Shown here one piece after another: positions 5,923 through 36,878 of a DNA stretch of 64,000 bases. Positions within the stretch are counted from its first letter, which is position 1; each line of letters opens with the position of its first letter. The stretch covers positions 1 to 64,000 of IMG/VR virus record IMGVR_UViG_3300008116_000014. One strand, given 5' to 3'. The position numbers were made by a program, and so were the translations under genes. A model generated the notes under the pieces. It did no database searches. It was not told the DNA's origin and saw nothing but the letters and a program-made list of their open reading frames with translations. This DNA is from a virus.

Positions 5923-6009
5923 TTGGTGTATAAGTATATTACTAAATATTAATAATGATCTTTTAGTGTAATATTAAATATTCTCTTTATAATATAACTA
6001 TATTTAATA

Positions 6010-6162: not shown

Positions 6163-6209
6163 CAAAATCAGATTCTGTTCTGGTGTAAATATAGTCTGGA
6201 GTATTAATT

Positions 6210-6545: not shown

Positions 6546-6882
6546 TACTAAAGATAGTATTGGTTATGTTAAAAAATTTGCATTAAATGAAGCATGGAAA
6601 CTATTACAATTAAATACAGCAACGATTGTACAAATCATAGAAGCTATTGGTAATGATCTTAGTAGTCCCAAAAAAAAGGACTTAGCAATGGAGTTGCTTA
6701 ATAGGTTCTATGATAAAATTTTTATTGTAGTTGACATTCCCTTTGTACCGAGCATAATTGAACCTATTATACATAGGTACATCAAAAGTATTCTCATGAT
6801 CATGGTGAGTGCCACAATTGATGCTACTGTTACCATTTTTAGAAATACGGGCGTTTTCATTAAAAAAGAGGCAGGTTTATGA
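6496..6882 (+). CDS. Hypothetical helical protein, 128 aa, possibly membrane-associated
   Basis: The protein is predicted to be nearly all helical. The C-terminal half has two moderately hydrophobic stretches (KIFIVVDIPFVPSIIEPII and SILMIMVSATIDATVTIF), which could form membrane hairpins or amphipathic helices. It overlaps the holin-like gene by 50 nt in another frame and shares ATGA with the next gene, so the four genes 6210-7744 form one translational unit. Family not recognised. Confidence 0.55.
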   Translation: MSNQELIKNEVEKLIVNTKDSIGYVKKFALNEAWKLLQLNTATIVQIIEAIGNDLSSPKKKDLAMELLNRFYDKIFIVVDIPFVPSIIEPIIHRYIKSILMIMVSATIDATVTIFRNTGVFIKKEAGL

Positions 6883-7256
6883 ATTACACAGAAAGTTTCG
6901 GTGAATTTGCTAGCAAAGTAACTCCAACGGATCTTGCGTTATATGCTGGTGCTGGTTTGGTACTATGGGTATTGTTTAAAGAAAAACTTAGTCCCGTACA
7001 AGAATTTTTAGGTGGACTGGTAGAAAAAGTAAAAGGTGTACTATCATCTAATAAAACACCAACAGTACCAGTATTTCAACCAAGCGTTCCTGTTCTAGAA
7101 ACAACAGATAAAGAAGATGTCTTTTTTAAGTTGGTTGTGAGTTGGAAACAAACACGAGATTTGGCTGTTGCTAGTGGATGCGATGAGGCTGTCAAAGTGG
7201 CCGATCAAATGTTTCCATATTTAAGTCCGGTAGTTTGTGGAAAGGAAAAAGTATGA
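6879..7256 (+). CDS. Small single-pass membrane protein, 125 aa
   Basis: One transmembrane helix near the N-terminus (LALYAGAGLVLWVLF, residues 19-33) is followed by a positively charged, Pro/Val-rich linker and a soluble C-terminal domain with two cysteines (SGCDEAV and SPVVCGK). The topology suggests a membrane-anchored domain of about 50 residues. ATGA overlaps on both sides. No family recognised. The shared layout with the following gene (anchor plus small soluble domain) suggests the two act together in the envelope. Confidence 0.55.
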   Translation: MNYTESFGEFASKVTPTDLALYAGAGLVLWVLFKEKLSPVQEFLGGLVEKVKGVLSSNKTPTVPVFQPSVPVLETTDKEDVFFKLVVSWKQTRDLAVASGCDEAVKVADQMFPYLSPVVCGKEKV

Positions 7257-7744
7257 ACTCGAAAACATTACTATTGTTAATTGCGGCGTGTCTAATCGCA
7301 GTAGGATTATTTAAACCTAGTTTACCCACGCTAGATAATACTGATTATGCTGTCGGTTCTGTAAATGTTGTTAAGCCATCTAATAAAGAACTATTGGATG
7401 AGTGTGAATCTGTTACCAAAGCTCTAAAAAGTGGACCATCTAGTAGAAAGGTTGATGGTAAAAGATTAGCCTCTTTATATTTGGATCTTGCTACTCTAGT
7501 TAGTTTGGATGGTGAAGATTGTATTATTAAAAATACAGAAGAAATTCGTCAAGCTAACAGATTGGCCGGAATTATGCTTAAATTGGATATGAAAGGCAAG
7601 TATGAGAATCTCGCAGAAGCCGGAACTAATCTCATTAAAGCCGCTATAGGTGACGATAGTGTATTATTAGATGATAGCCTAAGAGAAAAAGCGGTTGAAG
7701 GTTTTAATGCTCTCGCTTGGGCATGCTATATGGGATCTCAATAA
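7253..7744 (+). CDS. Exported or membrane-anchored hypothetical protein, 163 aa
   Basis: Start ATG 7253 overlaps the previous stop (ATGA). The N-terminus MNSKTLLLLIAACLIAVGLF is a signal peptide or anchor with no lipobox at a convincing position. The mature part (from about residue 25) is helical and acidic/basic mixed, with two cysteines (DECESV and EDCIIK) that could form a disulfide. It is the last of four coupled membrane genes, followed by an HNH gene. Unknown function; a periplasmic or envelope location is inferred. Confidence 0.55.
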   Translation: MNSKTLLLLIAACLIAVGLFKPSLPTLDNTDYAVGSVNVVKPSNKELLDECESVTKALKSGPSSRKVDGKRLASLYLDLATLVSLDGEDCIIKNTEEIRQANRLAGIMLKLDMKGKYENLAEAGTNLIKAAIGDDSVLLDDSLREKAVEGFNALAWACYMGSQ

Positions 7745-7748
7745 TAAA

Positions 7749-8288
7749 ATGAAAAACTGTAATAAGTGCAAGTTATCTCAAGAAGATACTAATTTTTATA
7801 AGGATAAGACCAGACATGATGGGTTGGAATACATATGTAAATCTTGTGCTCAGAAAAAAAAACAAAAATATAAATCTCATAATTATGAAATTTTACAAAA
7901 AAAAGCACTAAATTACTCCAGAAGACCAGATATTAAAATAAAAAGCAGGCTAAGAAAAAAAGAAAGACTTAAAACAGATATAAGTTATAGAATGTCAGAA
8001 AATATTAGACGCAGAATTAATTTAGCTCTACACGGAAAAAATAAATCTAAATCTACATTAGATATGCTTGGTTGTTCAATAGATTTTCTTAAACAATATA
8101 TATCTAATAAATTTGATAAAAATATGAGTTGGGATAATTATGGATTATATGGTTGGCACATAGATCATATCATACCATTATCATCAGCAAAAAATAAAGA
8201 AGAATTAGAAAAATTATGTCACTATTCAAATCTGCAACCACTGTGGGCAAAAGACAATTTACAAAAAAGCAATAAAATAAAGGCATAA
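7749..8288 (+). CDS. HNH homing-type endonuclease, 179 aa
   Basis: An N-terminal zinc ribbon (Cys4, Cys7, Cys30, Cys33) is followed by a basic helical linker and a full HNH core: HIDHIIPLS (His137, Asp139-His140), then HYSNLQPLW (His158, Asn161) and DNLQKSNK (Asn170). This is the common free-standing phage HNH family. I prefer ATG 7749 over an upstream in-frame start because it follows the previous stop by 4 nt. It sits between the membrane genes and the papain-like protease and is probably a selfish insertion. It shares its N-terminal ribbon with the remnant at 6010-6162. Confidence 0.85.
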   Translation: MKNCNKCKLSQEDTNFYKDKTRHDGLEYICKSCAQKKKQKYKSHNYEILQKKALNYSRRPDIKIKSRLRKKERLKTDISYRMSENIRRRINLALHGKNKSKSTLDMLGCSIDFLKQYISNKFDKNMSWDNYGLYGWHIDHIIPLSSAKNKEELEKLCHYSNLQPLWAKDNLQKSNKIKA

Positions 8289-10139: not shown

Positions 10140-10380
10140 TATTATAGTATGGTGTGTATATGGTTTATTTGTGGGTTCCATAGCCAAGAGCATAGTACCT
10201 GGTGAAGAAAATTTTGGCTTTGTGAAAACTGTTGCTTTAGGCGTAATTGGTTCGTATACTGGTGGAGCCATACTATACCTATTAGGGTCATATAGTTCAG
10301 TATCTCCTGCTGGTATTTTTATGGGTATTGCTGGATCAATAGTATCACTAATAGTATATAATAAATTAGTGTTAAAATGA
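10132..10380 (+). CDS. GlsB/YeaQ/YmgE-like small membrane protein, 82 aa
   Basis: Three hydrophobic helices carry Gly-rich motifs: GLFVGSIAKSIVPGEENFGF, GVIGSYTGGAILYLLG and GIAGSIVSLIVY. This fits the 'transglycosylase-associated' GlsB/YeaQ/YmgE family (GxIAkxixPG...GiiGaxxGgxl). I prefer ATG 10132 because the GGAG at 10121-10124 is 7 nt upstream of it and only 1 nt from the earlier ATG 10126. Family members are stress-related membrane proteins of uncertain function. A phage copy may modulate the host envelope. It overlaps the DUF1501 gene by ATGA. Confidence 0.65.
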   Translation: MFDIIVWCVYGLFVGSIAKSIVPGEENFGFVKTVALGVIGSYTGGAILYLLGSYSSVSPAGIFMGIAGSIVSLIVYNKLVLK

Positions 10381-11762
10381 GATGCTGCGGGCCTATTGAT
10401 AGAAGATCTTTTCTAGAAATTGGTTCTTTAGGATTTGCTGGATTGACATTATCGGATATGATCCAACTACAAGCAGTAGAACCCAAACCTAGAAAGTCTT
10501 TGATTTTTATATGGTTACCCGGTGGTGTTTCTCAGTTAGAAACGTATGATCTTAAACCGCAAGCGCCAGACGAATATAGAGGTCTATTAAAACCAATTAA
10601 TACTAATATTAATGGTATACAAATAAGTGAACTATTTCCAAAGCAATCCAAGATTGCAGACAAGTTTACTATTATTCGCTCAATGAGTCATTCTTTTACC
10701 GATCATGGTGGCGGCTCTAAAAGAGTTATGATGGCTAGAAGACCAGCAACACCAACAGGAACTATTAATGACCACCCGTCAACCTGTTCAATGATAAATA
10801 GATTTACAGAAAAAAATAATACATCATCTATACCTAATAGTATTATTTTAGGAGATAGTGGAGCAACCAAACCCGATAGCATAGCTTTGGGCGCAGCATA
10901 TCTAGGACCACAGTATACCCCATTTGAAGTTGATGGGGATCCATCAAAACATAATTTTAAAGTTAATTCATTATCCCTAAGCATGGGTTTAACTTCTGAA
11001 AGACTAGATAATAGAATGAATTTACTCAAATCTATAGATAAAGTTGATCGCTCAATAGATTTAACAAAATCGATGTCTACTATGGATAAGTTTCATGATC
11101 AGGCACAAAATTTATTATTTAGTTCCTCTGTGAAAGCTGCGTTTGATGTTTCTCTAGAAAAAGAAAATATAAGATTAAAGTATGGTCAACACGCCTGGGG
11201 ACAAAGAGCTTTAATGGCAAGACGATTAATCGAAGCTGGATGCGGTAGTGTTATTGTTACTATGAGTAATCCTAGTGTATCTATTAAACCGCCGACAGAT
11301 AATACTTATTATAACTGGGATTGTCATGCTGTTAATACTCATTTATTTGATGATATGAAATTTAGAGCGCCATTATATGACGAAGCCATAGCTGCTCTAA
11401 TAGAAGATGTTTATGATAGAGGATTAGATAAGGATGTTATGATTGTAGTAATGGGTGAATTTGGACACACTCCAAAATTAGAATATAAATCTGGTAAAGG
11501 TGGAAAAATTTGGCCGGGCAGAGATCATTGGTCAAAAGCATATTCAATTCTTGTTTCTGGTGGTGGCTTTAAAATGGGTCAGGTTATTGGCAAGTCTGAT
11601 GACAAGGGAGCTTTTGTTGAAGATAGAATGATATTACCAGAAGATTTATGGACTACAATATTTTATCATATGAATATTAATCCAAAAAGTATTATCCATG
11701 ATTTTACTGGTCGACCAATACCACTTTTACCAGAAGGTAATCTTATAAAGGAATTAATATAA
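10377..11762 (+). CDS. DUF1501 family protein with twin-arginine signal, 461 aa
   Basis: The N-terminus (CCGPIDRRSFLEIGSLGFAG) is a Tat-type signal of the kind that opens planctomycete DUF1501 proteins. Family landmarks follow: FIWLPGGVSQLETYDLKP, then SHSFTDHGGGSKRVM, an LARRLIEAG-like helix (LMARRLIEAGCGSV), WDCHAVN, and the C-terminal VVMGEFGHTPK...GRDHWSKAYSILVSGGG...GQVIGKSD. DUF1501 belongs to the alkaline phosphatase/sulfatase-like superfamily; the His/Asp/Glu motifs would bind metals. The length is usual for the family. It is coupled by ATGA to the small membrane gene upstream and lies 2 nt before the DUF1552 leader. A phage-borne, Tat-exported hydrolase-like protein is unusual. Substrate unknown. 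Confidence 0.85.
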   Translation: MRCCGPIDRRSFLEIGSLGFAGLTLSDMIQLQAVEPKPRKSLIFIWLPGGVSQLETYDLKPQAPDEYRGLLKPINTNINGIQISELFPKQSKIADKFTIIRSMSHSFTDHGGGSKRVMMARRPATPTGTINDHPSTCSMINRFTEKNNTSSIPNSIILGDSGATKPDSIALGAAYLGPQYTPFEVDGDPSKHNFKVNSLSLSMGLTSERLDNRMNLLKSIDKVDRSIDLTKSMSTMDKFHDQAQNLLFSSSVKAAFDVSLEKENIRLKYGQHAWGQRALMARRLIEAGCGSVIVTMSNPSVSIKPPTDNTYYNWDCHAVNTHLFDDMKFRAPLYDEAIAALIEDVYDRGLDKDVMIVVMGEFGHTPKLEYKSGKGGKIWPGRDHWSKAYSILVSGGGFKMGQVIGKSDDKGAFVEDRMILPEDLWTTIFYHMNINPKSIIHDFTGRPIPLLPEGNLIKELI

Positions 11763-11764
11763 TC

Positions 11765-11920
11765 ATGAGTATTATTCTACCAACAATAACAAATAGAAGA
11801 AATTATATAAAAGGATTAACTCTTGGTGCAGGAGCTATTATTCTACAGCCTTTTTTAGATTCCTTAGCATCTCAAGCTAATGGAGAAAAATCTCCCCCCT
11901 CGTATAATATTTTTTATTGA
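11765..11920 (+). other. Out-of-frame Tat-like leader of the DUF1552 gene
   Basis: ATG 11765, 3 nt after the DUF1501 stop, opens a 51-codon frame whose first part is a twin-arginine-type leader: NRRNYIKGLTLGAGAIIL followed by QPFLDSLASQA. It then reads GEKSPP at a CCCCCC run (11893-11898) and meets TGA at 11918-11920. The DUF1552 body continues in the +1 frame from exactly this point (PPRIIFF). Skipping one base at CCC-CCC-T joins leader and body into one 456-residue protein of normal family architecture. This can be a programmed +1 shift, a slipping (phase-variable) tract, a real mutation or a sequencing indel. Confidence 0.75.
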
Positions 11921-13115
11921 ATCCAATGGACTATATCCCCGTCATATACAGCCAAAAGAAATAAAAACTACTAGTGAATCTAATATAATTGATAAATCTT
12001 TGAATGAATTAGAATTACCAGATGCTATAGCGCCACTTAATCCATTAAAGGAAAAAATGTGTATAATACAAAAACTATCACATAAAGTCTCTGGTGGCGG
12101 AGACCATGGAAAAGGATATGGCGGATTAGGATGTTTTCATTGGAGAAAAGATGTTGCTGGTCAAACTATAGATCATGCACTAGCTGAATCTGTTAAAAGT
12201 ATAATCCCAGTATTAGGTTTAGCTATACCTCCACAATCATCTGCAATTTTTGTTCAAAGTGTATCAGCTATTGGATATAAAAAACCGCTATCAATGATTT
12301 GTCAACCAAATGTTGCTTTTCAAACATTATTTGGTAGTGTAGCAGAGGGCGATGCGGGTAAAATATATAATGCTAGAAATAAACTACTAGACTATATTAA
12401 AACAGATATAAATAGAGTACGCAATAGTTTACCATCAATGGATAAGATTAAATTAGATAATTATTTACAATCATTTGATGAGATTTTATATAGACAAAAT
12501 GAAACTATTAAAATTCAGGATAAGATTAGACGAAACCAACCAATAACAGATAAATTTCATAGTGAATTAAATATCGATAGATTTGAATCTCAGTGTGATA
12601 TTTTAGTGTCAGCTCTTATTAGTGGACTAACAAATATAGTTACTTTAGATGCTGCTGGTGGAATTCAACAATATCATACATGGAAATCTTTAGGTATTGA
12701 TATTGATGGTCATGCTATTGGTCATATGAATGGACCAGATAATTTATCTGTACCAATTCGTAAATATCATGCTGAAAGAGTATTAGATATTGCTAATAGA
12801 CTCGATTCTATTAAAGAGGGCGATGGTACAATGCTTGATAATAGTCTTATAGTTTGGATGAGCGACTCTGGTGAGGGTCATCATGGTTTTTGTGCCGAAT
12901 GGCCTATTGTATTGATAGGTAATTTAGGCGGCAGACTAAAAACCGATGGTAGATTTTTACAATATCCAGCTTATGGTAGTACCGGCAACAGAACCATTCG
13001 CAATCTCTATCTATCGCTGCTACATGCTGTTGGAGATAACAGAGAAAAATTTGGAGAGCTTGATTTAGAAATGGCAGCAGCCGAACAGTCTGGTCCATTA
13101 ACAGAAATACTATAA
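11880..13115 (+). CDS. DUF1552 family protein body (leader in another frame)
   Basis: Starting from RIIFFIESNGLYP the protein follows the DUF1552 pattern: a beta strand and PNG-like element, LNPLKEKMCIIQKLSH, then GGGDHGKGYGG, SLPSMDKIKLDNYL, and a late block SLIVWMSDSGEGHHGFCAEWP. DUF1552 is related to DUF1501 within the alkaline-phosphatase-like fold and is normally exported by Tat. ATG 11880 is the first start in this frame but would give a protein with no signal peptide. The Tat leader sits just upstream in the other frame (11765-11920). Together with the DUF1501 gene it forms a two-gene unit. Function is unknown; export to the host envelope or attachment to the virion is possible. Confidence 0.75.
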   Translation: MEKNLPPRIIFFIESNGLYPRHIQPKEIKTTSESNIIDKSLNELELPDAIAPLNPLKEKMCIIQKLSHKVSGGGDHGKGYGGLGCFHWRKDVAGQTIDHALAESVKSIIPVLGLAIPPQSSAIFVQSVSAIGYKKPLSMICQPNVAFQTLFGSVAEGDAGKIYNARNKLLDYIKTDINRVRNSLPSMDKIKLDNYLQSFDEILYRQNETIKIQDKIRRNQPITDKFHSELNIDRFESQCDILVSALISGLTNIVTLDAAGGIQQYHTWKSLGIDIDGHAIGHMNGPDNLSVPIRKYHAERVLDIANRLDSIKEGDGTMLDNSLIVWMSDSGEGHHGFCAEWPIVLIGNLGGRLKTDGRFLQYPAYGSTGNRTIRNLYLSLLHAVGDNREKFGELDLEMAAAEQSGPLTEIL

Positions 13116-15991: not shown

Positions 15992-16729
15992 TTGAGAAAA
16001 AAAACTAAAAACTCACAGAAAAAATCCGCAGTTATTGATTTAACTAATGAAATTAGTAGTCCGGCAGAAACCAAATATCGCAATAGATTAAAACCACGCA
16101 CAGATAATCAAAAAGAATATATCCGCACAGTGGCGGAAAATCACATCACCTTTTGTCAAGGTGTTGCTGGTAGTGGTAAAACACATATTGCCATAGGTAT
16201 GGCTTTAGAATATCTGTTAGAGAACAAGGTTAAAAAAATTGTTATAACAAGACCAGTAGTAGAAAGTGGAGAAAAGATAGGTTATCTTCCAGGCACAGCA
16301 GAAGAAAAGCTACATCCTTATCTACTACCTCTTCTAGACGAGGTAAATCACTTTATCTCTCCCGCCCAATATAATAGTTTAAAAAGTAATAACAGAATAG
16401 AGATAGTGCCATTAGGCTTAATGAGAGGACGCAATTTTCATGATTCATTTATTGTGGCCGACGAATGCCAGAACGCATCGTATGATCAATTAAAAATGCT
16501 CTTGACAAGGCTTGGTAACAACAGTAAAATGGTACTAACTGGAGATATTAGTCAATCAGATTTACGAAGACATTTACAGGGCGGTTTTTACGTTTTAACT
16601 CAACTTTTAAATAACATTGACGGTATCGGCATATCATATCTTGATATGAAAGATATTGTGCGTCATCCAATCATAGGTACTATTTTAACCAAACTTGACT
16701 CTTACGAAAATGGAAACCAAACACTCTAG
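15992..16729 (+). CDS. phoH: PhoH-like ATPase, 245 aa
   Basis: A P-loop ATPase of the PhoH family, with Walker A GVAGSGKT (residues 57-64), the family strand ITRPVVESGEKIGYLPG, and Walker B-type VADECQNA (Asp157, Glu158), then MVLTGDISQSDL. PhoH proteins are common in phages, probably as RNA helicase or RNA-processing factors. The start is TTG 15992, preceded by AAAGG at good distance; the next ATG is past the P-loop, so TTG is required. A Lys-rich N-terminus of about 35 residues precedes the core. The end overlaps the HNH gene by 20 nt. Confidence 0.88.
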   Translation: MRKKTKNSQKKSAVIDLTNEISSPAETKYRNRLKPRTDNQKEYIRTVAENHITFCQGVAGSGKTHIAIGMALEYLLENKVKKIVITRPVVESGEKIGYLPGTAEEKLHPYLLPLLDEVNHFISPAQYNSLKSNNRIEIVPLGLMRGRNFHDSFIVADECQNASYDQLKMLLTRLGNNSKMVLTGDISQSDLRRHLQGGFYVLTQLLNNIDGIGISYLDMKDIVRHPIIGTILTKLDSYENGNQTL

Positions 16730-17288
16730 ATGCTTAGTGCTTAATGCTGATTATACTCCATTAACTATTATTGGTTGGCAAAAGGCTTTGTTATGGTCTA
16801 TTAAACATTCATATGATGTTCGTATTGGTGTGGAGATAATAGATTTCTATAAAGATGATTTTATTTGTGGAGTTAATAAAAAATATCCTATCCCTGCTGT
16901 TGTAAAAACAGCAAAATATTTTAGAATAAATAACTACAAAGTAAAATTTTCTAGAAAAAACTTATTCATAAGAGATAATTATACCTGTCAATATTGTAAT
17001 AAAAGATTTGATATTGGTACATTAACATATGATCATGTTATTCCAAAGTCGGTTTGGGATTATAATATAGGATCTCCAACATCTTGGACCAATATTGTTA
17101 CAGCATGTAGAGAGTGCAACAGAAGAAAAGGTAGTAGAACACCTAAACAAGCCAATATGCCGTTACAGAATTTGCCAAATAAACCTCAAAAAAATGTAAA
17201 GTACTTGCCTATAACCACCTATCTATCTAAGATAAGATCAGAGATCCCATCTGAATGGATTGGCTATTTACCAGAATCATATTTATAA
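16710..17288 (+). CDS. HNH endonuclease (McrA/HNH_5-type), 192 aa
   Basis: It begins CLVLNADYTPLTIIGWQKAL, the signature start of a large HNH family, then carries LFIRDNYTCQYC (Cys93, Cys96), LTYDHVIPKS (Asp108, His109), WTNIVTACRECNRRKGSRTP (Asn128, Cys133, Cys136, Asn137). All zinc and catalytic positions are present. ATG 16710 is the natural start, since the upstream TTG lies deeper in phoH. Members occur as free-standing genes in phages and bacteria; some are homing, others act in DNA packaging or repair. Because it is tightly overlapped with its neighbours, it may be a resident enzyme rather than a recent insertion. Confidence 0.85.
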   Translation: METKHSRCLVLNADYTPLTIIGWQKALLWSIKHSYDVRIGVEIIDFYKDDFICGVNKKYPIPAVVKTAKYFRINNYKVKFSRKNLFIRDNYTCQYCNKRFDIGTLTYDHVIPKSVWDYNIGSPTSWTNIVTACRECNRRKGSRTPKQANMPLQNLPNKPQKNVKYLPITTYLSKIRSEIPSEWIGYLPESYL

Positions 17289-24272: not shown

Positions 24273-24800
24273 ATGCCAGCTAAAAAATATTTTATAACTA
24301 AAGAATATTTAGAAGAACATTATACCAAACAAAAAAAGAGCACAACCACCATAGCAAAAGAATTAGGACTTAAATCCACAAATACGCTTAAAAGATTATT
24401 AAAAAAATACGATATACCCAACAATAATAATAGGGCTGGTAGGCCAGTAAAAACCACACAAAAATTTGGTGAAATACACAAATCATATATCTGTACATTA
24501 AGATTACGAGCAAAAAGATTAGATTATGAATTCAATTTAAATGGAAAATTTTTATGGGAATTATTTCTAAAACAAAATAGAAAATGTGCTTTATCTGGCA
24601 TAGAAATAGGATTTCCTCAAGCCTGGGGCGTTAAAAGTAAAACAGATATTACTGCGTCTCTAGATAGAATAGATAGTAATAAAGGATATACAAAAGATAA
24701 TGTGCAATGGGTACACAAGCATATAAACACTATGAAAATGCATATGACAGATATGGAGTTTATAAGTATCTGTAAGAAAGTAGCGGAATACAACAAGTGA
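24273..24800 (+). CDS. HNH-type homing endonuclease with N-terminal HTH, 175 aa
   Basis: The N-terminus is a helix-turn-helix (TTTIAKELGLKSTNTLKRLL) in the style of the NUMOD/HTH DNA-binding units of homing endonucleases. A nuclease core follows: KCALSGIEIGF and ASLDRIDSNKGYTKDNVQWVHK. The SLDRIDSxKGYxxxNxxWVxxxIN pattern is shared with the second enzyme at 25928-26647, so the two are paralogous mobile genes on either side of the RecB/Cas4-like nuclease. RBS AAGGAG is 8 nt before ATG. It overlaps the downstream GTG start by 4 nt. Confidence 0.8.
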   Translation: MPAKKYFITKEYLEEHYTKQKKSTTTIAKELGLKSTNTLKRLLKKYDIPNNNNRAGRPVKTTQKFGEIHKSYICTLRLRAKRLDYEFNLNGKFLWELFLKQNRKCALSGIEIGFPQAWGVKSKTDITASLDRIDSNKGYTKDNVQWVHKHINTMKMHMTDMEFISICKKVAEYNK

Positions 24801-25927: not shown

Positions 25928-26647
25928 ATGAGAGGCAGAAAAGTAGACAATGGTCGTTTTGTAAAATGTTACGATAATAAATTAACAAAAAAATATCTAG
26001 AAAAAGAATATCCAAAACAAGGAGCCTATAAAATAGCTAAAAGTTTGGGGATTCACGTTAAAACCGTATATAATTATTTAGGATATTACAAAATACCAAG
26101 AACTAGACAAGAAAATAATAAAATTAAAAAAGGCCAAATTTTTGGATTGTTAACTTTAGTAGAACCTGTTGGAAAATTAAAAAACGGCACAATTACATGG
26201 AAGTGTATGTGTGACTGCGGAAGCGAGACAATAGTACCATCCTCTAGGATAAAAATAGGCAAGGTTAAAAGTTGTGGCTGTTTGAACAAAATTAGTGGCT
26301 CAAAAAGATGGAATTGGAAGGGGTATTGTGGTATTAGTGGAAGCAGATTTTGTGAGATTAGATTAAGAGCCAAAAAGAAAAAATGGGATTTCAACCTAAC
26401 TCCAAAATTCTTATGGGAACTATTTCAACAACAAAACAAGAGATGTGCTATAACTAATGAAATTATAGATTTGAATATTGATGGATCATTAGATAGGATA
26501 GACAGTTCAAAAGGATATGTAAAAAATAACGTTTGGTGGGTTAAAAAAGATATAAATAAGATGAAACTAGACTTTCCATTAAATTTGTTTATCGAATTAT
26601 GTGAGAAGGTTGTAGCCAATAAGGAGAATATAAGAAATGGGCGTTGA
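25928..26647 (+). CDS. HNH-type homing endonuclease with HTH and zinc module, 239 aa
   Basis: An N-terminal HTH (KIAKSLGIHVKTVYNYLG) is followed by a zinc module, WKCMCDCGSETIV and KSCGCL. This module is common in phage AP2/HNH mobile endonucleases. The nuclease core RCAITNEIIDL and SLDRIDSSKGYVKNNVWWVKK is paralogous to the enzyme at 24273-24800. The gene ends inside the first codons of dnaE: the polymerase RBS (AAGGAG, 26621-26626) and ATG 26637 lie within it. This means insertion right at the polymerase start. An 87-nt AT-rich gap precedes it. Confidence 0.82.
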   Translation: MRGRKVDNGRFVKCYDNKLTKKYLEKEYPKQGAYKIAKSLGIHVKTVYNYLGYYKIPRTRQENNKIKKGQIFGLLTLVEPVGKLKNGTITWKCMCDCGSETIVPSSRIKIGKVKSCGCLNKISGSKRWNWKGYCGISGSRFCEIRLRAKKKKWDFNLTPKFLWELFQQQNKRCAITNEIIDLNIDGSLDRIDSSKGYVKNNVWWVKKDINKMKLDFPLNLFIELCEKVVANKENIRNGR

Positions 26648-26681
26648 GCAACGATATGTGCCGCTACACGTCCATTCCTAA
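26637..26681 (+). pseudogene. dnaE: Detached 14-codon N-terminus of DNA polymerase III alpha (PHP HxH motif)
   Basis: From ATG 26637, with a good AAGGAG upstream, the frame reads MGVEQRYVPLHVHS and stops at TAA 26679-26681. In intact DnaE proteins YVxLHVHS continues as (E/H)(Y/F)SLLDGLS; here FSLLDGLS resumes in another frame after TAAGTGAACTATG. Both frames are closed by stops (TAA 26679, TGA 26683), so a simple one-base shift cannot join them. The piece carries the first metal-binding HxH of the PHP domain. Confidence 0.7.
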
Positions 26682-26688
26682 GTGAACT

Positions 26689-28074
26689 ATGTTTTCACTT
26701 TTGGATGGACTATCCAAACCAGAGCAAATAGCAGAAAGATGCAAAGAGATCGGAGCATCTGCTTGTGCGTTAACAGATCATGGTAACATAGCAGGAACCA
26801 TCAAGTTTTATACTGCTATGAAAAAAGCTGGACTAAAGCCTATACTTGGATGTGAACTTTACATTTGTAGTCAAAACCCAAAAATCAAAGAAAAAGATAA
26901 CAAAAAACTAAGTCATTTTCTGGTATTGGCTAAGAATTATTCAGGATGGAGAAATCTTATCAAGATAGTTTCATCATCCAATAATCCAGAATATTATTAT
27001 CATAAGCCGAGATTGGATTTACCAACACTAAAAGATCTTCATTCAGGGGATTTGATCGGAATAACTGGTCATCTTGGATCAACACTAGCAGATCAAATAC
27101 TAGACGGGGATGCTCTTAGAGATGATTGGCAAAATATAGGAGTACAACATATATCTTATCTTAAGACTATATTTGGTGATCATTTGTTTTTGGAAGCTCA
27201 ATTAATAGATAAAGATAATCTGCCAATCCAAGAAATCCTCACAAACTGCATCAGAAAATTGGGACAATTAACCAATACTAAAGTTATATGTACTCCTGAT
27301 GCTCATTATTGTCGCAAAGAGGATGCTGTTGATCAGCGAGTATTATTGTGCAACAATCTTAAGATTACATTCTCTGATATTAGTCGTAAAATCATAAACG
27401 ATCAAGATATTCCTATGGGGTGCTTTTTTACATCAGATAATTATCATATTCCATCTCAGGAGGAAATGAAGAACATACACACAGAAGAAGAAATCAATAA
27501 TACAAATTTTGTGTGTGATTTAGTGGAAGAATATAACATACTAAGTAAACCTAAATTACCATTATTTAAATGTCCACCAAATTTCTCTCAGGATGAATAT
27601 TTAAGAGAACTGTGTAGAAACGGATGGAGAGATAAAATAGCAAATGTTGTACCTAAAGAAGATCAACAACCATACTTGGATCGTATCAAATACGAACTAG
27701 AGGTTTTACAGGGTGCTGGGCTGAGTAGTTATTTTTTAATAGTACAAGATATTGTGAACTATGTTAAAAGAGAAGGATGGCTTCCGGGACCGGGACGAGG
27801 TTGTTTTATACCAGAAACAAGAGTTAAAATGGCTTCTGGTGAATTGATGCCTATCTATAATATAGAAATAGGAGATCAAGTAATAGATGCTTTTGGAAAT
27901 AAACAAAGAGTCTATGATATAATGAGATATGAAATAGATGAAGAAATACTGGAAATAGAATTAGAAAATGGTAAAATCATAAGATGTACAAAAGATCATA
28001 GATTTTTAACACTAAATAGGGGTTGGGTTGAAGCCCAGTATCTATCAGAAAATGATGATTTGGCCAAAATATAA
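26689..28074 (+). CDS. dnaE: DNA polymerase III alpha, N-terminal part fused to split-intein N-half, 461 aa
   Basis: Residues 1-371 are the PHP and early polymerase domain of DnaE: FSLLDGLSKPEQIAERC, ALTDHGNIAG, KPILGCELYI, YHKPRLDLPTL, then YELEVLQGAGLSSYFLIVQD and WLPGPGRG. At the conserved GPGRG/SAAG site the frame changes to an intein (Cys372 onward, 27802-28071) and ends with tandem TAATAA. ATG 26689 is the first start in frame, 8 nt after the stop of the N-terminal fragment, so reinitiation is likely; the product would lack the HVHS motif. By itself it lacks the palm aspartates, which lie in 28916-29749. Confidence 0.9.
   Translation: MFSLLDGLSKPEQIAERCKEIGASACALTDHGNIAGTIKFYTAMKKAGLKPILGCELYICSQNPKIKEKDNKKLSHFLVLAKNYSGWRNLIKIVSSSNNPEYYYHKPRLDLPTLKDLHSGDLIGITGHLGSTLADQILDGDALRDDWQNIGVQHISYLKTIFGDHLFLEAQLIDKDNLPIQEILTNCIRKLGQLTNTKVICTPDAHYCRKEDAVDQRVLLCNNLKITFSDISRKIINDQDIPMGCFFTSDNYHIPSQEEMKNIHTEEEINNTNFVCDLVEEYNILSKPKLPLFKCPPNFSQDEYLRELCRNGWRDKIANVVPKEDQQPYLDRIKYELEVLQGAGLSSYFLIVQDIVNYVKREGWLPGPGRGCFIPETRVKMASGELMPIYNIEIGDQVIDAFGNKQRVYDIMRYEIDEEILEIELENGKIIRCTKDHRFLTLNRGWVEAQYLSENDDLAKI
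27802..28071 (+). other. Split intein N-half (IntN), 90 aa
   Basis: It starts with the nucleophile Cys1 in CFIPETRVKMASGELMPI, block A of Hint domains. Next comes EIGDQVIDAFG, then block B in IIRCTKDHRFLTLNRGWVEA with the TxxH pair (Thr63, His66). It ends at LSENDDLAKI. The length of 90 residues is normal for natural split IntN. The matching C-half is at 28916-29020. Confidence 0.92.
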
Positions 28075-28113
28075 TAAGAACCTCTTCCTGGACCACTTTT
28101 GGTGTATCCTACT

Positions 28114-28950
28114 ATGAAAGGACAATCTTGTATGGAATATATAGCATTTAAATCTTTACAAGACAATAATTTTGAATACAGGGGATTAAGCAATAAACCT
28201 ATTAAAGACATATGTATAAAATGCAATAAAACTTTTGAATACGCTAAACTTAAGAAATTTATTAGGAGCAGAGTAAACATCCCAAAAATATATTGGTGTC
28301 AATGTCAGAAATGTTTTTTGCGATATAGAACTATTGATAATTCAGACTGGATAGAAAAAAATAGGAAAGCACAACTTATAGCGCAAAATAAAGAAGAACA
28401 AAAGAAAAAGAACGCGGAGGCAGTATCAAAATCTTGGACAAGAACAAGAAAAAATAAAGCTTCTGAATATCTTAAAGAAAGATGGGTTAATGATGAGGCT
28501 TTTAAAAATAAGGCTACTCTTAATTTAACCAATAATAGAAGATATAATTTTACAAACGGAATTGCTACTGGGGGTCTTAGAGGATTATATAACGATATAT
28601 ACTATGATAGTGCGCTAGAACTATCTTTTATATTGTGGTGTGAATACAATAGTATGCCGATTAAAAGATATGATCAAGATTCTATTAAGTATGTAGATGA
28701 AAATACTATCGAAAGAGAATATTTTCCTGATTTTATTATCAATAACACAACTATTGTCGAAATAAAAGGAAAAGGAATTTGGTATAATCGACACTTTGAA
28801 CGCAATAAATTAAAAATGATAGCAGCAAAGACCAAATTTAATGCAAAGTATTGCATATATTACGACTGGGATGAACAAACAAAATTATTTTATCGAAAGG
28901 CTAGAAAATTACATCATGAAAATAAAAAGAAAAACGTCGCTATCATATAA
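28114..28950 (+). CDS. Free-standing PD-(D/E)XK homing endonuclease inside the split intein, 278 aa
   Basis: A zinc ribbon (Cys34, Cys37, then CQCQKC at 62-67) is followed by a Lys-rich helical linker like NUMOD repeats (KSWTRTRKNKASEYLKERW) and a nuclease core: YDSALELSF (Glu169), EYFPDFIINN (Asp206) and TIVEIKGKG (Glu216, Lys218). The frame is the same as IntN but separated by TAATAA, and its end overlaps the IntC start by 35 nt in another frame. So it may descend from the endonuclease domain of a once-continuous intein. Separate endonucleases between split-intein halves are known from metagenomic 'fractured genes'. Start ATG 28114; RBS weak. Confidence 0.85.
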   Translation: MKGQSCMEYIAFKSLQDNNFEYRGLSNKPIKDICIKCNKTFEYAKLKKFIRSRVNIPKIYWCQCQKCFLRYRTIDNSDWIEKNRKAQLIAQNKEEQKKKNAEAVSKSWTRTRKNKASEYLKERWVNDEAFKNKATLNLTNNRRYNFTNGIATGGLRGLYNDIYYDSALELSFILWCEYNSMPIKRYDQDSIKYVDENTIEREYFPDFIINNTTIVEIKGKGIWYNRHFERNKLKMIAAKTKFNAKYCIYYDWDEQTKLFYRKARKLHHENKKKNVAII

Positions 28951-29020
28951 GGGTACTGTGTGCGATTTGTCTGTAACCAATACAGCATCTTATAATGTTG
29001 AAGGGATTGGAGTACACAAT
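28916..29020 (+). other. Split intein C-half (IntC), 35 aa
   Basis: From Met1 the C-half has block F VCDLSVTNTASYNVEG and block G GIGVHN, with penultimate His34 and terminal Asn35. The first extein residue is Ser (AGT 29021), a valid +1 nucleophile. The size is typical of natural IntC peptides. It should splice in trans with IntN at 27802-28071. Confidence 0.92.
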
Positions 29021-29749
29021 AGTGCGGCGGGGTGTTTGGTATCCTATCTCATCGGCATAACTAATATTGATCCTATAAAATATAGTCTGCTTTTTGAAAG
29101 ATTCTATAATGAGGGTCGTAACACAGCAGACAATATTTCCATGCCAGATATTGATGTAGATATACCTATCGAAAAGCGAGAAATGGTTATTCAATATATC
29201 AAAGACAAATATGGTTCGGACAAAGTTTCTCAAATGGTTACTTTCAATACGATCAAGGGTAGGGGCGCACTAAAAGACGTATTAAGAGTATATGGTAATA
29301 TTACATTTGAAGAAATGAATAAGATAACCAAAAATATCCCCGATGAGTCTAAGATTGCCGATGATCTTCAAGAGATGAAAGAAGAAACTGGCGAAGCATC
29401 CATCGTTCGATGGGCTTTGGAAAACGATAATGATAAGCTTAAAGAATGGTGCTTTATTGATGAAAAAGGACAACTACAAGGCCTCTTGTCAAAAAGGTTT
29501 GAACAGGCTATTAGACTAGAGGGCACCAAGTCAAATCAGTCCAAACATGCTGCTGGTATTGCTATCAGTAGTGAACCATTAAATGAATTATGTCCTATGG
29601 TTTATGATAGTAAGAATGATCAGTTAATAGCAGGAATGGAGATGCAAGACTTGGAAAGCATAGGAATTATTAAGTTTGATATTCTTGGTGTTGCTCTTCT
29701 TGATAAAGTGATGACAATCAGAGACCTTTTAAATGAAGGAGTTCAATAA
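28916..29749 (+). CDS. dnaE: Split-intein C-half fused to DNA polymerase III alpha catalytic middle part, 277 aa
   Basis: Residues 1-35 are the intein C-half. From Ser36 (29021) the DnaE sequence resumes as SAAGCLVSYLIGITNIDP, then LLFERFYNEG and SMPDIDVDIP with the two palm aspartates, VSQMVTFNTIKGRGALKDV, SKHAAGIAI and IIKFDILGVALLDKV with the third catalytic Asp. So all polymerase active-site acids are on this fragment. It ends at TAA 29747-29749, before the beta-clamp/OB part found at 30613-32220. ATG 28916 gives the usual IntC length; an upstream in-frame ATG at 28841 lies deeper in the endonuclease gene. TAATG couples it to the next ORF. Confidence 0.9.
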   Translation: MKIKRKTSLSYKGTVCDLSVTNTASYNVEGIGVHNSAAGCLVSYLIGITNIDPIKYSLLFERFYNEGRNTADNISMPDIDVDIPIEKREMVIQYIKDKYGSDKVSQMVTFNTIKGRGALKDVLRVYGNITFEEMNKITKNIPDESKIADDLQEMKEETGEASIVRWALENDNDKLKEWCFIDEKGQLQGLLSKRFEQAIRLEGTKSNQSKHAAGIAISSEPLNELCPMVYDSKNDQLIAGMEMQDLESIGIIKFDILGVALLDKVMTIRDLLNEGVQ

Positions 29750-29934
29750 TGATGGTTAAGTTTAAAGATGTGGCTGAAAATACATTATTTAGCAAAGATG
29801 GTGTGGAATTCAAAAAAATACAACTAGTAAAAATTAGTTGTTGTAAAACAATAAATGCTATACAAGTATTAGATCCTAGAAATAGAGTGCTTTTTAATCA
29901 AGAAGATGAAGTAGAAGTGAATGATCAACTATAA
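29749..29934 (+). CDS. Small conserved-type phage protein between polymerase pieces, 61 aa
   Basis: It begins MMVKFKDVAENTLFSKDGVEFKKI and has NAIQVLDPRNRVLFNQEDEVEV, a beta-rich pattern seen in many small phage proteins (FxDLxxGxxFxxxGxxYxKI...NAxxL..G....F.DxxxV). The start overlaps the previous stop (TAATG) and the end overlaps the exonuclease gene by 14 nt, so it is part of the polymerase operon. Function unknown; it could be a small replisome adaptor or a host-interaction protein. Confidence 0.6.
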   Translation: MMVKFKDVAENTLFSKDGVEFKKIQLVKISCCKTINAIQVLDPRNRVLFNQEDEVEVNDQL

Positions 29935-30616
29935 TAAGATTTGTGTTTTTGATTTTGAGACAGACGGATCGGATCCATCAGAATGCAGTCCTGTACAGAT
30001 TGCTGCTATTATGATAGATCCATTAAATTTGGACATTATACCCGGCTCAGAGTTCAATATAAACTTTAGGCCAGAAGTTTTGGAAAACAACGAAAACTAC
30101 AAATACGAAACAGATATATTAGATTTTCATTCAAAGGTTAAAGGGTGTTCTCAAGACGAGGTTTTAGCCTCGTGGTATAAATATCCTAAACAGGATCATT
30201 CTTGGAAATTATTCACAGCCTATTTGGATAAATACCATTCACGAGCAACTAAAAAAAGTCAATTTTCTGCACCTATTGCTGCTGGTTATAATATACATAG
30301 ATTTGATCTACATATCATAGACAGATTAAGCAAAAAGTATGGTAATTTGAACAAAGAAAAAAGAACAGATTTATTTTATCCTAGAGACACTATAGATGCT
30401 ATGCAATTAATGTTTTATTGGTTTGAGCATAGTAGTGATCTTAAAAGTTATTCGTTAGATACTGTGAGAGATTATCTGGGAATTAGCAAAGATGGTGCTC
30501 ACGATGCTCTAAAAGATGTTCAGGATACAGCAGCAATAATAATTAGGTTTTTAAAGTTACATCGTAATTTGGGACAAAAGGTAAAGTTTAAGAATTCTTT
30601 TGCAAATCAGGCATGA
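29921..30616 (+). CDS. DEDDh 3'-5' proofreading exonuclease (DnaQ-like), 231 aa
   Basis: The exonuclease motifs are all present: CVFDFETDG (first Asp/Glu), GYNIHRFDL (second Asp) and KDGAHDALKDVQDT with the His-x4-Asp of the DEDDh class. The size and architecture match the editing subunit of a DnaE-type replicase. It lies between the middle and C-terminal pieces of the polymerase and overlaps the C-terminal piece by 4 nt, so it will be made with them in stoichiometric coupling. A separate insertion region of about 60 residues (RPEVLENNENYKYETDIL and onwards) is longer than in bacterial DnaQ. Confidence 0.88.
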   Translation: MINYNKICVFDFETDGSDPSECSPVQIAAIMIDPLNLDIIPGSEFNINFRPEVLENNENYKYETDILDFHSKVKGCSQDEVLASWYKYPKQDHSWKLFTAYLDKYHSRATKKSQFSAPIAAGYNIHRFDLHIIDRLSKKYGNLNKEKRTDLFYPRDTIDAMQLMFYWFEHSSDLKSYSLDTVRDYLGISKDGAHDALKDVQDTAAIIIRFLKLHRNLGQKVKFKNSFANQA

Positions 30617-32220
30617 CTAAAAAATATCAATATCCTTGTGGATGTTCTTTTGAGTTAAATGATAACAATGGATTAGTTTTTGATCCAGATATTAACTCTA
30701 TAAATTTGGACTGTTCCAGAACATGGGGTCTAATTTCGGATGGTAATACTAAGGGTTGTTTTCAATTAGAATCTCGTCTAGGACGATCCATAGCCAAAAA
30801 ACTTAAGCCAGAAAATATAGAGCAGCTTTCTGCACTAATTGCTGTGTTAAGACCCGGCTCATTAGAGGCTATTAGAGATGGTAAAAGTGTAACCAATCAT
30901 TATATCGATAAAAAGAATGGTCAAGAAACACTAGATAACTTTCATCCCGTTCTTGAGCCAATCCTAAATTCAACATACGGAGAGATGATATATCAAGAAC
31001 AAGCAATGGAAATTGCTAAGATAGTTGCTGGTTTTAATTTGCGAGAAGCAGATATGTTAAGAAAAGCTATTGGTAAGAAAAAACCAGAAGAAATGGCAAA
31101 GGTTAAGTCAAAGTTTTTAGAAGGATCATCAAAACTGAATATCTTAAGCACAAATGAGGCAGAACAGGTGTTTGGTTGGATTGAAAAAAGTCAAAGATAT
31201 TCTTTCAATAAGTCCCATTCTGTTAGTTATGCTATTAATGCGTACTTATCAGCATATGCCAAAGCACATTTTCCAAAAATATTTTTTGCATCATATCTCA
31301 GATTTGCCAAAGATAAAAAAGATCCTCAAGCAGAGATAAAAGAATTGGTACAAAATGCTAATGAAATGGATATTACTGTTCATACTCCTGATATTAGAAA
31401 TCTTAATGAGTTCTTTATATTGAAGAACGATAAGATATATTTTGGTTTAACAGATATTAAGGGTGTGGGCAAATCGGTATTTGATAAGCTTAGAGGAATA
31501 TCTTTGAATGTTAAATTTGATTCATCTAATTGGCTTCAGTTTTTATTCTTAGTTTTGAATAGAATTAATTCTACAGCAGCCAAAGCTTTGATCCAAAGCG
31601 GGGCGCTTAGTTTTATACCAATAACCAGAAGTAAGATGTTGTATGAATATAATCTTGTTAGCACTTTAACAGCCAAAGAGATTGAGCATATTTGTAATAA
31701 CTTGACCAAATTCACCACACTAAAGGAATGTTTGGGATTTGTGATGGGTTTACCTAGAGTTAATAAGAATAGACAAAATTCTATCAGAGATTCTTTGTAT
31801 GCTTTAGATTTTCCACCACATTCATTGGATGATAGTCCGGAGTGGATAGCAGACTGCGAAGATGCCTTACTTGGATGCTCTATTACTTGTTCCAAGCTGG
31901 ATATGTATGATATTAGTATGACCAATATAACATGTAGAGAATTAAAGAATACGTCTATGAAAGATAATCTTATTCTTGGCGGAGAAATAGATAATATCAA
32001 TATTGTAAAGACCAAAAGTGGTAAAAATCCCGGTCAAGAAATGGCTTTTGTTACAATGACAGATCAAACTGGTTGTGTTGACTCTATAGTATTTTTTCCT
32101 GAACAATACAAAACTTTCAAGAATTTACTATTTTTGGGCAATATTGTTATTGTGAAAGGATCTAAGTCCAAGAACGGAGATGGTATCATAGTAGAAAAGG
32201 GTTATATAGCAAAAACTTGA
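30613..32220 (+). CDS. dnaE: DNA polymerase III alpha, C-terminal part, 535 aa
   Basis: It starts with a Cys-rich segment (KYQYPCGCSFEL, then LDCSRTWGL) and then the DnaE finger region: GNTKGCFQLESRLGRSIA, ALIAVLRPGSLEA, YGEMIYQEQAMEIAKIVAG, ADMLRKAIGKKKPEEM, FNKSHSVSYAINAYLSAYAKAHFP. HhH-like FGLTDIKGVGKSV and an OB-fold, MAFVTMTDQTGCVDSIVFFPE, close the protein. It supplies fingers, tandem HhH and OB domains, but no palm acids. The break after KFDILGVALLDKV falls between palm and finger sections. There are no intein blocks at this break, so the pieces must associate non-covalently. Confidence 0.88.
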   Translation: MTKKYQYPCGCSFELNDNNGLVFDPDINSINLDCSRTWGLISDGNTKGCFQLESRLGRSIAKKLKPENIEQLSALIAVLRPGSLEAIRDGKSVTNHYIDKKNGQETLDNFHPVLEPILNSTYGEMIYQEQAMEIAKIVAGFNLREADMLRKAIGKKKPEEMAKVKSKFLEGSSKLNILSTNEAEQVFGWIEKSQRYSFNKSHSVSYAINAYLSAYAKAHFPKIFFASYLRFAKDKKDPQAEIKELVQNANEMDITVHTPDIRNLNEFFILKNDKIYFGLTDIKGVGKSVFDKLRGISLNVKFDSSNWLQFLFLVLNRINSTAAKALIQSGALSFIPITRSKMLYEYNLVSTLTAKEIEHICNNLTKFTTLKECLGFVMGLPRVNKNRQNSIRDSLYALDFPPHSLDDSPEWIADCEDALLGCSITCSKLDMYDISMTNITCRELKNTSMKDNLILGGEIDNINIVKTKSGKNPGQEMAFVTMTDQTGCVDSIVFFPEQYKTFKNLLFLGNIVIVKGSKSKNGDGIIVEKGYIAKT

Positions 32221-35742: not shown

Positions 35743-36094
35743 TATATTTTCAACAGATATAGCAAAAGATATTGATCTAATAGAAAGAATAAAAACTTTT
35801 CTTTACAATAATACTGATATAGAAGACTTTTTTATTTTTAGTGATGAGACTATGTGTTTATTGCATGATCATAGTTCATTGCCAACTTTTTATACTGTAG
35901 GATATAATGGCACTATAATATTTTTGACGGTTCAAGACTATCTGTTATTCAGAGATAAGGCGAATGGGGATATAGCAGTATTTCTAAATAAAGAAGACCT
36001 ATCAAATATTGATCGTAGTACGATAAAAAATCACAAAATCATTATTGAGGATGTTGATTCGACTTTAAAATGGGTGCCGAGCTATGGATTATAA
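35732..36094 (+). CDS. Hypothetical protein, 120 aa
   Basis: An acidic alpha/beta protein (SIFSTDIAKDIDLIERIKTFL, then VGYNGTIIFLTVQDYLLF and a long acidic loop). The sequence GYNGTIIFLTVQDYL followed by AVFLNKEDL suggests a small Rossmann-like unit that could accompany the glycosyltransferases. It overlaps the preceding gene by 11 nt and the PD-(D/E)XK gene by 11 nt. Family not recognised. Confidence 0.45.
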   Translation: MRYSIFSTDIAKDIDLIERIKTFLYNNTDIEDFFIFSDETMCLLHDHSSLPTFYTVGYNGTIIFLTVQDYLLFRDKANGDIAVFLNKEDLSNIDRSTIKNHKIIIEDVDSTLKWVPSYGL

Positions 36095-36878
36095 CAAACT
36101 GTCTGATAAACAAAAAAGAGAGCTGCTTAGTAAAGAATATGAAACCAATAATAAAAGCTTTAAAGATATAGCCGATAGTGTTGGTACATACGCTAATAAG
36201 ATAAGACGAGATGCTATTAAATTAGGAATAAAAATCAGAGATAAAAGCGAGGCCCAAAAGAATGCTCTTCAACGTGGAAAAGCAGTTCATCCAACAAAAG
36301 GAACAACAAGACCAGAAAGCATAAAAACTAAGATAGGGCTTGGTGTTATGCAATCATGGGAGGATATGGATGATCAAACACTGAATGATAGAAAAAATAA
36401 AGCCAGAATAAATTGGGAAAGTTTATCGCAGGATAAAAAAGATAATATTCTAAGAGAAGCTAATAGCGCTGTAAGAGAAGCTAGTAAACAAGGATCAAAA
36501 CTTGAAAAGTTTCTACTGCAACAGTTGATTCAAGACGGATACAAGGTTGAATTTCATAAAGAGCAATCATTATTAAATACCAAATTGCAGATTGATCTAT
36601 TTCTACCTACTCTGAATATAGCCATAGAGGTTGATGGACCATCGCACTTTAAGCCCGTATGGGGTGATGATAATCTTAAGCGTAATAAGGGTTATGATAA
36701 TAAAAAGACAGGATTAATTCTTGGTAAAGGACTCGTGCTAATAAGAATCAAACAAACCAAAGATTTTTCTAAAGCGCGAGGAATAACAATCTATAATGAA
36801 CTAAAAATCCATATAGAGTCTATCAAAAACAAATTTCCGGATAAAGATAATAGGAACTTAGAAATAGGAGACAATTAA
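36084..36878 (+). CDS. Vsr/EDxHD-like homing endonuclease with HTH, 264 aa
   Basis: An N-terminal HTH (KSFKDIADSVGTYANKIRRD) and a basic linker precede a PD-(D/E)XK core: Glu141 (KLEKFLL), Asp171 in LQIDLFLP, and Glu182, Asp184, His188 in IAIEVDGPSHF. This is the set found in EDxHD phage homing nucleases related to Vsr. The C-terminus completes the fold with GLVLIRIKQTKDFS. It shares the core with the small nuclease at 19755-20165. It sits between glycosyltransferase and recombination genes and is probably mobile. Confidence 0.75.
   Translation: MDYNKLSDKQKRELLSKEYETNNKSFKDIADSVGTYANKIRRDAIKLGIKIRDKSEAQKNALQRGKAVHPTKGTTRPESIKTKIGLGVMQSWEDMDDQTLNDRKNKARINWESLSQDKKDNILREANSAVREASKQGSKLEKFLLQQLIQDGYKVEFHKEQSLLNTKLQIDLFLPTLNIAIEVDGPSHFKPVWGDDNLKRNKGYDNKKTGLILGKGLVLIRIKQTKDFSKARGITIYNELKIHIESIKNKFPDKDNRNLEIGDN

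Follow-up and report, generated by a model that had tools for sequence, protein, structure and literature searches.

The gene for the alpha subunit of DNA polymerase III in the phage of IMG/VR record IMGVR_UViG_3300008116_000014, of which we analyzed a stretch of 64,000 nucleotides (the window, part of a 90,658-base virus record), consists of several pieces, two of which bear the halves of an intein. We consider it highly probable, at about 0.88, that this gene carries a mobile cassette of the type termed a fractured gene, in which the halves of a split intein are attached to two exteins and a free-standing gene for a homing-type endonuclease lies between them. The parts of the locus described below are on the plus strand, and the contigs that share its intein came from scans of IMG/VR, where a single contig may contribute several loci.

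The N-extein (26689-27801) comprises 371 residues from an ATG at 26689, extends from the PHP domain to the motif GPGRG, and matches Pfam PHP (3e-31) and DNA_pol3_alpha (2.5e-12). It continues into a 90-residue N-terminal intein half (IntN, 27802-28071) with Cys1 and the block B sequence TKDH, and the open reading frame (ORF) that holds both (26689-28074) is closed by two stop codons, TAATAA (28072-28077). The endonuclease is encoded in another frame, in ORF 28099-28950, with a likely start at ATG 28132 and AAAGGA upstream of it (gene, 28132-28950). Inside the 3' end of that gene, which it overlaps by 35 nucleotides, ATG 28916 opens the 35-residue C-terminal half (IntC, 28916-29020); this ends in GVHN and is followed by the C-extein from Ser+1 to the end of the palm, with the motifs PDIDVD and KFDILG (29021-29749; DNA_pol3_alpha, 7e-55). 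The original prediction, made from the letters of the DNA, had placed both intein halves and the intervening nuclease at these positions, and its reading of this part of the gene stands, now supported by intein profile matches and by the recurrence of the layout in 19 contigs.

Several independent comparisons identify the interruption as an intein. IntN matched Pfam Intein_splicing (5.9e-9, just above the family cut-off), NCBIfam intein_Nterm (6.8e-7) and solved intein chains in the Protein Data Bank (PDB), including NrdJ-1. When we searched with a profile of the joined halves, solved inteins were matched across both of them, the best being a bacterial intein-like domain (1.2e-11), and the matches also included NrdJ-1 (2.8e-10) and, among others, cyanobacterial DnaE chains. 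An alignment of 14 joined inteins (IntN plus IntC, window included) revealed C1, T63, H66, D107, H124 and N125 to be invariant in all 14. Cys1, the TxxH of block B, the terminal His-Asn followed by Ser+1, and the location of the halves on separate ORFs together constitute the signature of a split intein, and indicate that the alpha gene is interrupted by such an element at GPGRG|SAAG. Proportions of nonsynonymous (pN) and synonymous (pS) differences, computed by the Nei-Gojobori method for seven loci, put pN below pS for each intein half in every pair (21 of 21 for IntN, 21 of 21 for IntC). Between loci L090 and L092, the latter of which has lost the endonuclease, pN/pS was 0.16/0.74 for IntN and 0.07/0.75 for IntC, indicating purifying selection on IntN as well as IntC, loss of the endonuclease notwithstanding. 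From the conserved residues and this selection we propose that IntN and IntC associate and splice in trans, a softer statement than the original prediction, which held that the replicase must be made in this way.

An improbable alternative holds that the alpha pieces work as noncovalent subunits, the intein halves being decaying relics that no longer splice. Such assemblies have precedents in phage split genes that reassemble without splicing, namely Aeh1 nrdA and genes 43A/43B of phage 25 (PMC2988022), and the same alpha is already divided between palm and fingers without an intein. Relics, however, would be expected to lose C1, TxxH or HN somewhere, whereas the splicing residues are invariant throughout the alignment and pN lies well below pS in both halves, the locus without endonuclease included.

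The fractured arrangement that we favor recurs in other contigs. An intein occupies the alpha GRG|S codon in 19 IMG/VR contigs, among which one shows no difference from the window in the 13,383 bp that we compared, and in all 19 IntN runs into a stop and IntC opens a new ORF. Intein identity to the window ranged from 31 to 66% in the 13 aligned contigs of the 18 further ones; L085, L086 and L087 are nearly identical to one another, and L260 and L266 share the same reading frames. The first scans had yielded 158 loci (several per contig); the intein was present in 14 of them, whereas the site ran through uninterrupted in 141 and could not be read in 3. The original prediction had kept in view that the stops at 28072-28077 and the frame change might be assembly errors within a contiguous intein. 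An error of this kind, or one of sequencing, in a single ORF holding both intein and endonuclease has a very low probability. In its favor it may be said that the window is an uncultured-virus contig whose identical second record may derive from related reads. It is ruled out for the family by these homologues, as the stop after IntN and the separate IntC frame recur in the 18 further contigs and the spacing between Cys1 and Ser+1 takes each of the three frames among the intein loci.

The gene between the intein halves encodes a putative TnsA-like homing endonuclease of the PD-(D/E)XK type. Residues E163, P199-D200 and E210-I-K212 were invariant in nine of nine sequences, in agreement with the nuclease class assigned in the original prediction. 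An AlphaFold2 model built from nine sequences (mean predicted local distance difference test score, pLDDT, 81.8; predicted template modelling score, pTM, 0.45) displays a Cys-rich, possibly zinc-binding N-terminal region, then helices, and an alpha-beta nuclease domain at the C-terminus. Foldseek placed TnsA first among solved structures (probability 0.99, E 0.035), ahead of the EDxHD homing enzyme I-Bth0305I (0.47), and matches among predicted viral proteins include NUMOD3-type and endonuclease I proteins. Below their cut-offs, Pfam profiles gave a weak Phage_endo_I match and, for the L170 protein, a TnsA-like one, and PHROG 33911 (function unknown) matched the L090 endonuclease over residues 5-253. 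Further observations weigh against a functional cassette of this kind. A first AlphaFold2 model was poor (pLDDT 51); none of the Foldseek matches to solved structures reached E <= 0.001; sequence profiles of the endonuclease found no solved structure, and IntC searched alone found no PDB match; no endonuclease relative was confirmed in genome_contigs; tblastn against cultured phages returned zero matches for the window endonuclease and three partial ones for the L090 protein; and the endonuclease gene of L089 contains an in-frame stop. A scan for sigma-70 promoters near the endonuclease gene revealed no excess (8 found, 8.0 expected).

The distribution of the cassette is that expected of a homing element. 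All 18 endonuclease relatives located in IMG/VR sit at the alpha GRG|S intein site, so that the enzyme appears dedicated to one site and transferred with it. The endonuclease gene is kept in 18 of the 19 intein contigs, the remaining one, L092, retaining no more of it than roughly the 33 codons at the 3' end that overlap with the start of IntC (end read by eye). Between loci L085 and L088, pS was 0.32 for IntN, 0.13 for IntC and 0.25 for the endonuclease as against 0.67 and 0.64 for the exteins, a contrast that points to recent transfer of intein and endonuclease between diverged phages. On an alpha tree of 128 rows (rows below 330 residues, duplicates, L159, L160 and L172-L174 left out), intein presence required at least 5 changes. 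In the proposed cycle, the PD-(D/E)XK protein would cut intein-free alleles at or near GRG|S and repair would copy the cassette in.

An element at 28077-28094, noticed by eye after the IntN stop and subsequently evaluated by shuffling, resembles in reverse complement the empty homing site (G-P-G-R-G-S); in several loci the reverse complement reads GGN-MGN-GGT-TCT, that is, Gly-Arg-Gly-Ser. In 10 of 15 loci, no more than 5% of 300 shuffles equalled the best inverted 16-mer match to the locus's own site; L260, L167, L170, L172 and L268 failed this level. The copy is degenerate and conserved in close relatives, and an inverted-repeat finder did not list it. Since I-TevI both homes and represses transcription (PMC10448857), the element may be considered a candidate operator for the endonuclease, or alternatively an RNA stem, which is no more than a lead.

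Splicing would join PHP-...-GPGRG to SAAG-...-palm in a protein of 371 + 242 = 613 residues, the N-terminal mini-ORF described below not counted. The GRG|S motif, judging from structures of the polymerase superfamily, binds the incoming nucleotide, and the intein lies between its Gly and Ser, so the unspliced pair should be inactive. The fingers, however, are encoded together with the helix-hairpin-helix (HHH) and oligonucleotide-binding (OB) parts on a separate ORF (30613-32220; Pfam DNA_pol3_finger 2e-44, HHH_6 9.5e-9), beyond a DnaQ-like exonuclease gene (29921-30616; Pfam RNase_T 4e-10, PHROG 192), and intein splicing alone therefore gives a half-polymerase instead of a whole enzyme. The earlier claim that the active-site acids are all on the C-extein holds for PDIDVD and KFDILG, and needs the amendment that splicing by itself does not suffice. 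We examined the palm/fingers break (29749-30613) as a candidate further intein and rejected it; no intein motif was seen, and the break is common to 158 of the 159 loci with a palm motif. The junction is read through uninterrupted in L170 and, as found later, also in L267 and L268. By this distribution the break is old, and alpha is here apparently a two-part C-family polymerase. Because alpha is split at this point in nearly all relatives examined, the spliced N-palm protein would pair with the separately encoded fingers-HHH-OB protein. In Cellulophaga phage phi13:1 (L270), alpha is annotated as the adjacent genes gp038 and gp039.

The combination of a split intein with a free-standing endonuclease is of a known kind. 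Dassa et al. in 2009 reportedly described fractured genes, mainly in phages, with split intein halves on pieces of DNA-metabolism genes and a free-standing endonuclease gene between them, and are said to have named an EDxHD/Vsr-like endonuclease family present in about half of the published loci. The window and 18 of the 19 contigs fit that layout; they differ in the host gene, DnaE at GRG|S, and in a PD-(D/E)XK TnsA-like nuclease in place of the EDxHD/Vsr-like one. The split DnaE inteins of cyanobacteria (PDB chains such as 2keq and 1zde) share with ours the alpha subunit host, Cys1 and a similar block B. Their insertion site lies near YCFNKSHS, whereas the window reads RYSFNKSHS without interruption in ORF 30613-32220, and no endonuclease gene is known between their halves. 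NrdJ-1 (8ubs), in sequence one of the closest solved inteins (IntN 3e-5; joined profile 3e-10), resides in a ribonucleotide reductase. At the same alpha site as in the window, Lactococcus phage 949 (ORF116) and Bacillus phage G (gp329) carry contiguous inteins, and phage G, unlike the window, has its separate endonuclease gene, gp330, after a further break. Within the phage G alpha region (L160:4893-8862), this further break comes shortly after the contiguous intein, with gp330 and more alpha beyond. PolB of Pseudomonas phage MIJ3 has intein halves around an HNH gene (PMC6892783); it resembles the window as a phage replicase split around a nuclease and differs in being a B-family polymerase with an HNH nuclease.

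The GRG|S site was already known from the contiguous inteins of phages 949 and G. Our literature search found no report of a DnaE GRG|S split intein, nor of its dedicated TnsA-like nuclease and decay stages, but the loci of Dassa et al. may include this one. What the family offers is a split intein with its own endonuclease placed inside the presumed nucleotide-binding motif of a bacterial-type replicase, and 19 contigs that span successive stages, from a cassette with its endonuclease, through an endonuclease with a stop, to loss of the endonuclease with the split kept, which bear on how split inteins originate and persist. Compact halves of about 90 and 35 residues could also serve protein ligation. 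The alpha of L167 has a second split intein (4982-7824), inserted at FNK|SHAV; the endonuclease gene enclosed by its halves is a different one, EDxHD-like by eye and with no Pfam match.

The original prediction started a continuous alpha frame at 26637 and recognized a single intein break in 26637-32220. What begins at 26637 is instead a mini-ORF with its stop at 26679, and a second mobile break, at the alpha N-terminus, had been overlooked. The mini-ORF MGVEQRYVPLHVHS (26637-26678) encodes the first PHP residues of alpha (HxH), ends with the Ser codon TCC, and is preceded at 10 nucleotides by the Shine-Dalgarno-like AAGGAG (26621-26626), similar purine runs being present in relatives. A hairpin (26637-26675) pairs ATGGGCGTT (26637-26645) with CACGTCCAT (26667-26675), just 5' of the Ser codon, in 8 of 9 positions. 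A 10-nucleotide insert, TAAGTGAACT (26679-26688), begins with the stop TAA 26679, and alpha resumes in another frame at ATG 26689. Directly upstream of alpha lies an HNH endonuclease gene (25928-26647; PHROG 3322, 2e-20; PHROG 374, 8e-17).

Relatives provide the uninterrupted counterpart of this arrangement, in which H-x-H-S runs directly into X-(F/Y)-S-L-L-D-G; interrupted starts have a stop and some bases after the Ser codon. Similarity to alpha or to the endonuclease brought in 156 loci whose S-L-L/M-D-G anchor could be read; of these, 116 were straight, 40 were interrupted and none lacked the peptide. Of 80 loci fetched through the stretch past the first 25 codons, 64 were uninterrupted, 15 had the mini-ORF with its stop, and L299 was in frame with HTYS. 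The interrupted set that we counted (L005, L034 and L175-L253, after removal of L211 as a chance match) comprises 80 contigs and 59 distinct sequences; in the window and these 80 contigs the stop directly follows the take-off Ser codon, although both pattern searches demanded H-V-H-S, a stop and roughly F/Y-S-L-L-D-G. The interrupted allele required at least 21 changes on the tree, and the insert measures 6-12 nucleotides, with 23, 22 and 13 of 58 tree rows in the three frames. An HNH gene or remnant ends within 150 nucleotides upstream in 11 of the 59 distinct interrupted sequences, a count that may be low as only the best HNH match per locus was kept, versus 0 of 69 distinct intact starts. 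Relative to its near twin L068, L005 has the insert, an HNH remnant and, by eye, about 45 donor-like bases, after which identity resumes, a difference that reads as a co-conversion tract. Collectively, these comparisons indicate that the N-terminus of alpha is interrupted by a mobile HNH cassette. Frameshifting (-1 or +1) and stop readthrough were rejected as sole explanations of its expression, because the insert varies between 6 and 12 nucleotides and over all three frames; an alpha-frame TGA after the take-off codon in the window, L201 and L209 also opposes them.

For the window itself we lean, with limited confidence, towards re-initiation of alpha at ATG 26689 after TAA 26679, without bypassing, the mini-ORF then being a leader or a peptide that would bind alpha noncovalently. 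The ATG coincides with the resume codon and is preceded by ACT, which is unlike the take-off Ser codon TCC; re-initiation is the simpler account there, and we do not file the window as a case of the T4 gene 60 type. Among the 59 distinct sequences, 34 have TCN, the type of codon used for the take-off Ser, just ahead of the resume codon, and an alpha-frame ATG or GTG comes right after the stop in 22 of the 25 with a non-TCN landing, as against a start in 8 of the 34 with TCN. We also assembled a set blind to the N-terminus, in which loci fetched through the stretch past the first 25 codons were pooled with those fetched earlier by similarity (the S-L-L/M-D/E-G anchor still being required), and which yielded 31 distinct interrupted sequences, 19 with and 12 without an alpha-frame start. 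Two of its features speak against re-initiation: all 19 start-bearing sequences keep Pro-Leu, written in two different Pro and five different Leu codons, a constancy that would be superfluous in a mere leader, and 12 of the 31 have no alpha-frame ATG, GTG or TTG in the 60 nucleotides searched upstream of F/Y-S-L-L-D-G.

A more tentative proposal, to which we give somewhat less credence, is that part of the clade expresses the alpha N-terminus through a mobile short bypass like that of T4 gene 60, the window perhaps having gone over, in whole or in part, to re-initiation at ATG 26689. What the HNH cassette leaves behind would be the mini-ORF M..YVPLHVHS, a hairpin that covaries and ends at the Ser take-off codon, and an in-frame stop with 3-9 further nucleotides; ribosomes would slide over the gap and resume after the Ser-like codon at (H/M)-(F/Y)-S-L-L-D-G. 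A single replicase would then be rejoined by ribosome sliding at its N-terminus and by protein trans-splicing at GRG|S, each break having its own homing endonuclease. Consistent with bypassing, 25 of the 59 distinct sequences lack an alpha-frame ATG, GTG or TTG within 60 nucleotides upstream of F/Y-S-L. The hairpin, formed between ATGGACGTG or a variant of it at the start of the mini-ORF and the nine bases that precede the take-off codon, is present in 59 of 59, its 3' arm being largely fixed by the search and its 5' arm free, with nine pairs in 52 sequences, eight in 7, and a loop of 21 or 18; the same search found 5-8 pairs in 68 intact starts, and shuffled upstream bases gave nine pairs in 3 of 2,950 trials. 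Pair 7 is G-C in 31 sequences, A-U in 25 and G-U in 3, and shuffling its letters left at most 42 of 58 rows Watson-Crick versus 56 observed when kinship is ignored.

Constraint on the peptide provides a further argument. Pro-Leu before HVHS shows synonymous changes only in 31 of 31 blind-set sequences, and 30 of the 31 retain F/Y, the exception being L349, where Tyr is replaced by Asp. For the 12 no-start sequences of this set, Pro-Leu had pS 0.65 and pN 0.02, and F/Y-S-L pS 0.57 and pN 0.14; pN in the 25 distinct no-start sequences was 0.008 for PLHVHS and 0.054 for F/Y-S-L, values partly built in by the search patterns. Conservation of H-V-H-S and S-L proves nothing alone, these residues being needed to find or place the sequences. 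The search bias and the blind-set pN together weaken the evidence for constraint on the codons before the first TTG, which slightly lowered our estimate for bypassing. Other results are neutral to this reading or count against it: the window hairpin folds only modestly better than shuffles (z -1.87); pair 7 covariation was not significant in kinship-corrected pairs, which were too few; the contrast of no-start/TCN with start/other sequences (26, 3, 6 and 23 of 58 rows; Fisher 1.6e-7 without kinship) was not significant either once corrected for kinship; and of the 25 no-start sequences, 24 have in the TTG of SLLDG a codon that might serve as a weak start, the other, L239, having none in 41 codons.

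T4 gene 60 has a homing-endonuclease origin and a bypass of 50 nucleotides, with matched codons, a stop that follows the take-off codon and, on the 5' side, a stem-loop that refolds behind the ribosome (PMC5009743, PMC11194080). The N-terminal break of alpha resembles it in the endonuclease insertion just upstream, the in-frame stop, the hairpin, the often similar flanking codons and the new frame; it differs in its insert of 6-12 nucleotides, its mini-ORF of about 14 codons and its occurrence in many phages instead of one, and the window further differs in its unlike flanking codons, TCC and ACT, and in the presence of ATG 26689 downstream. Very few natural cases of translational bypassing are documented (PMC5009743), and our literature search found no report of bypassing in a phage alpha gene. 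If bypassing holds, about 80 natural alleles, varied in gap, landing codon and hairpin, would make its rules directly testable, and this break would be the larger surprise of the two should its mechanism be confirmed.

Over the whole window, scans for Rfam families and tRNA genes were empty. Two genes at 10377-13115, with Pfam DUF1501 and DUF1552, are unusual phage cargo, and the first of them presumably resembles planctomycete proteins. Further candidate endonuclease genes lie at 7695-8288 (Pfam HNH, below cut-off) and 16695-17288 (Pfam HNH), and two more were picked out by eye at 24273-24800 and 36084-36878.

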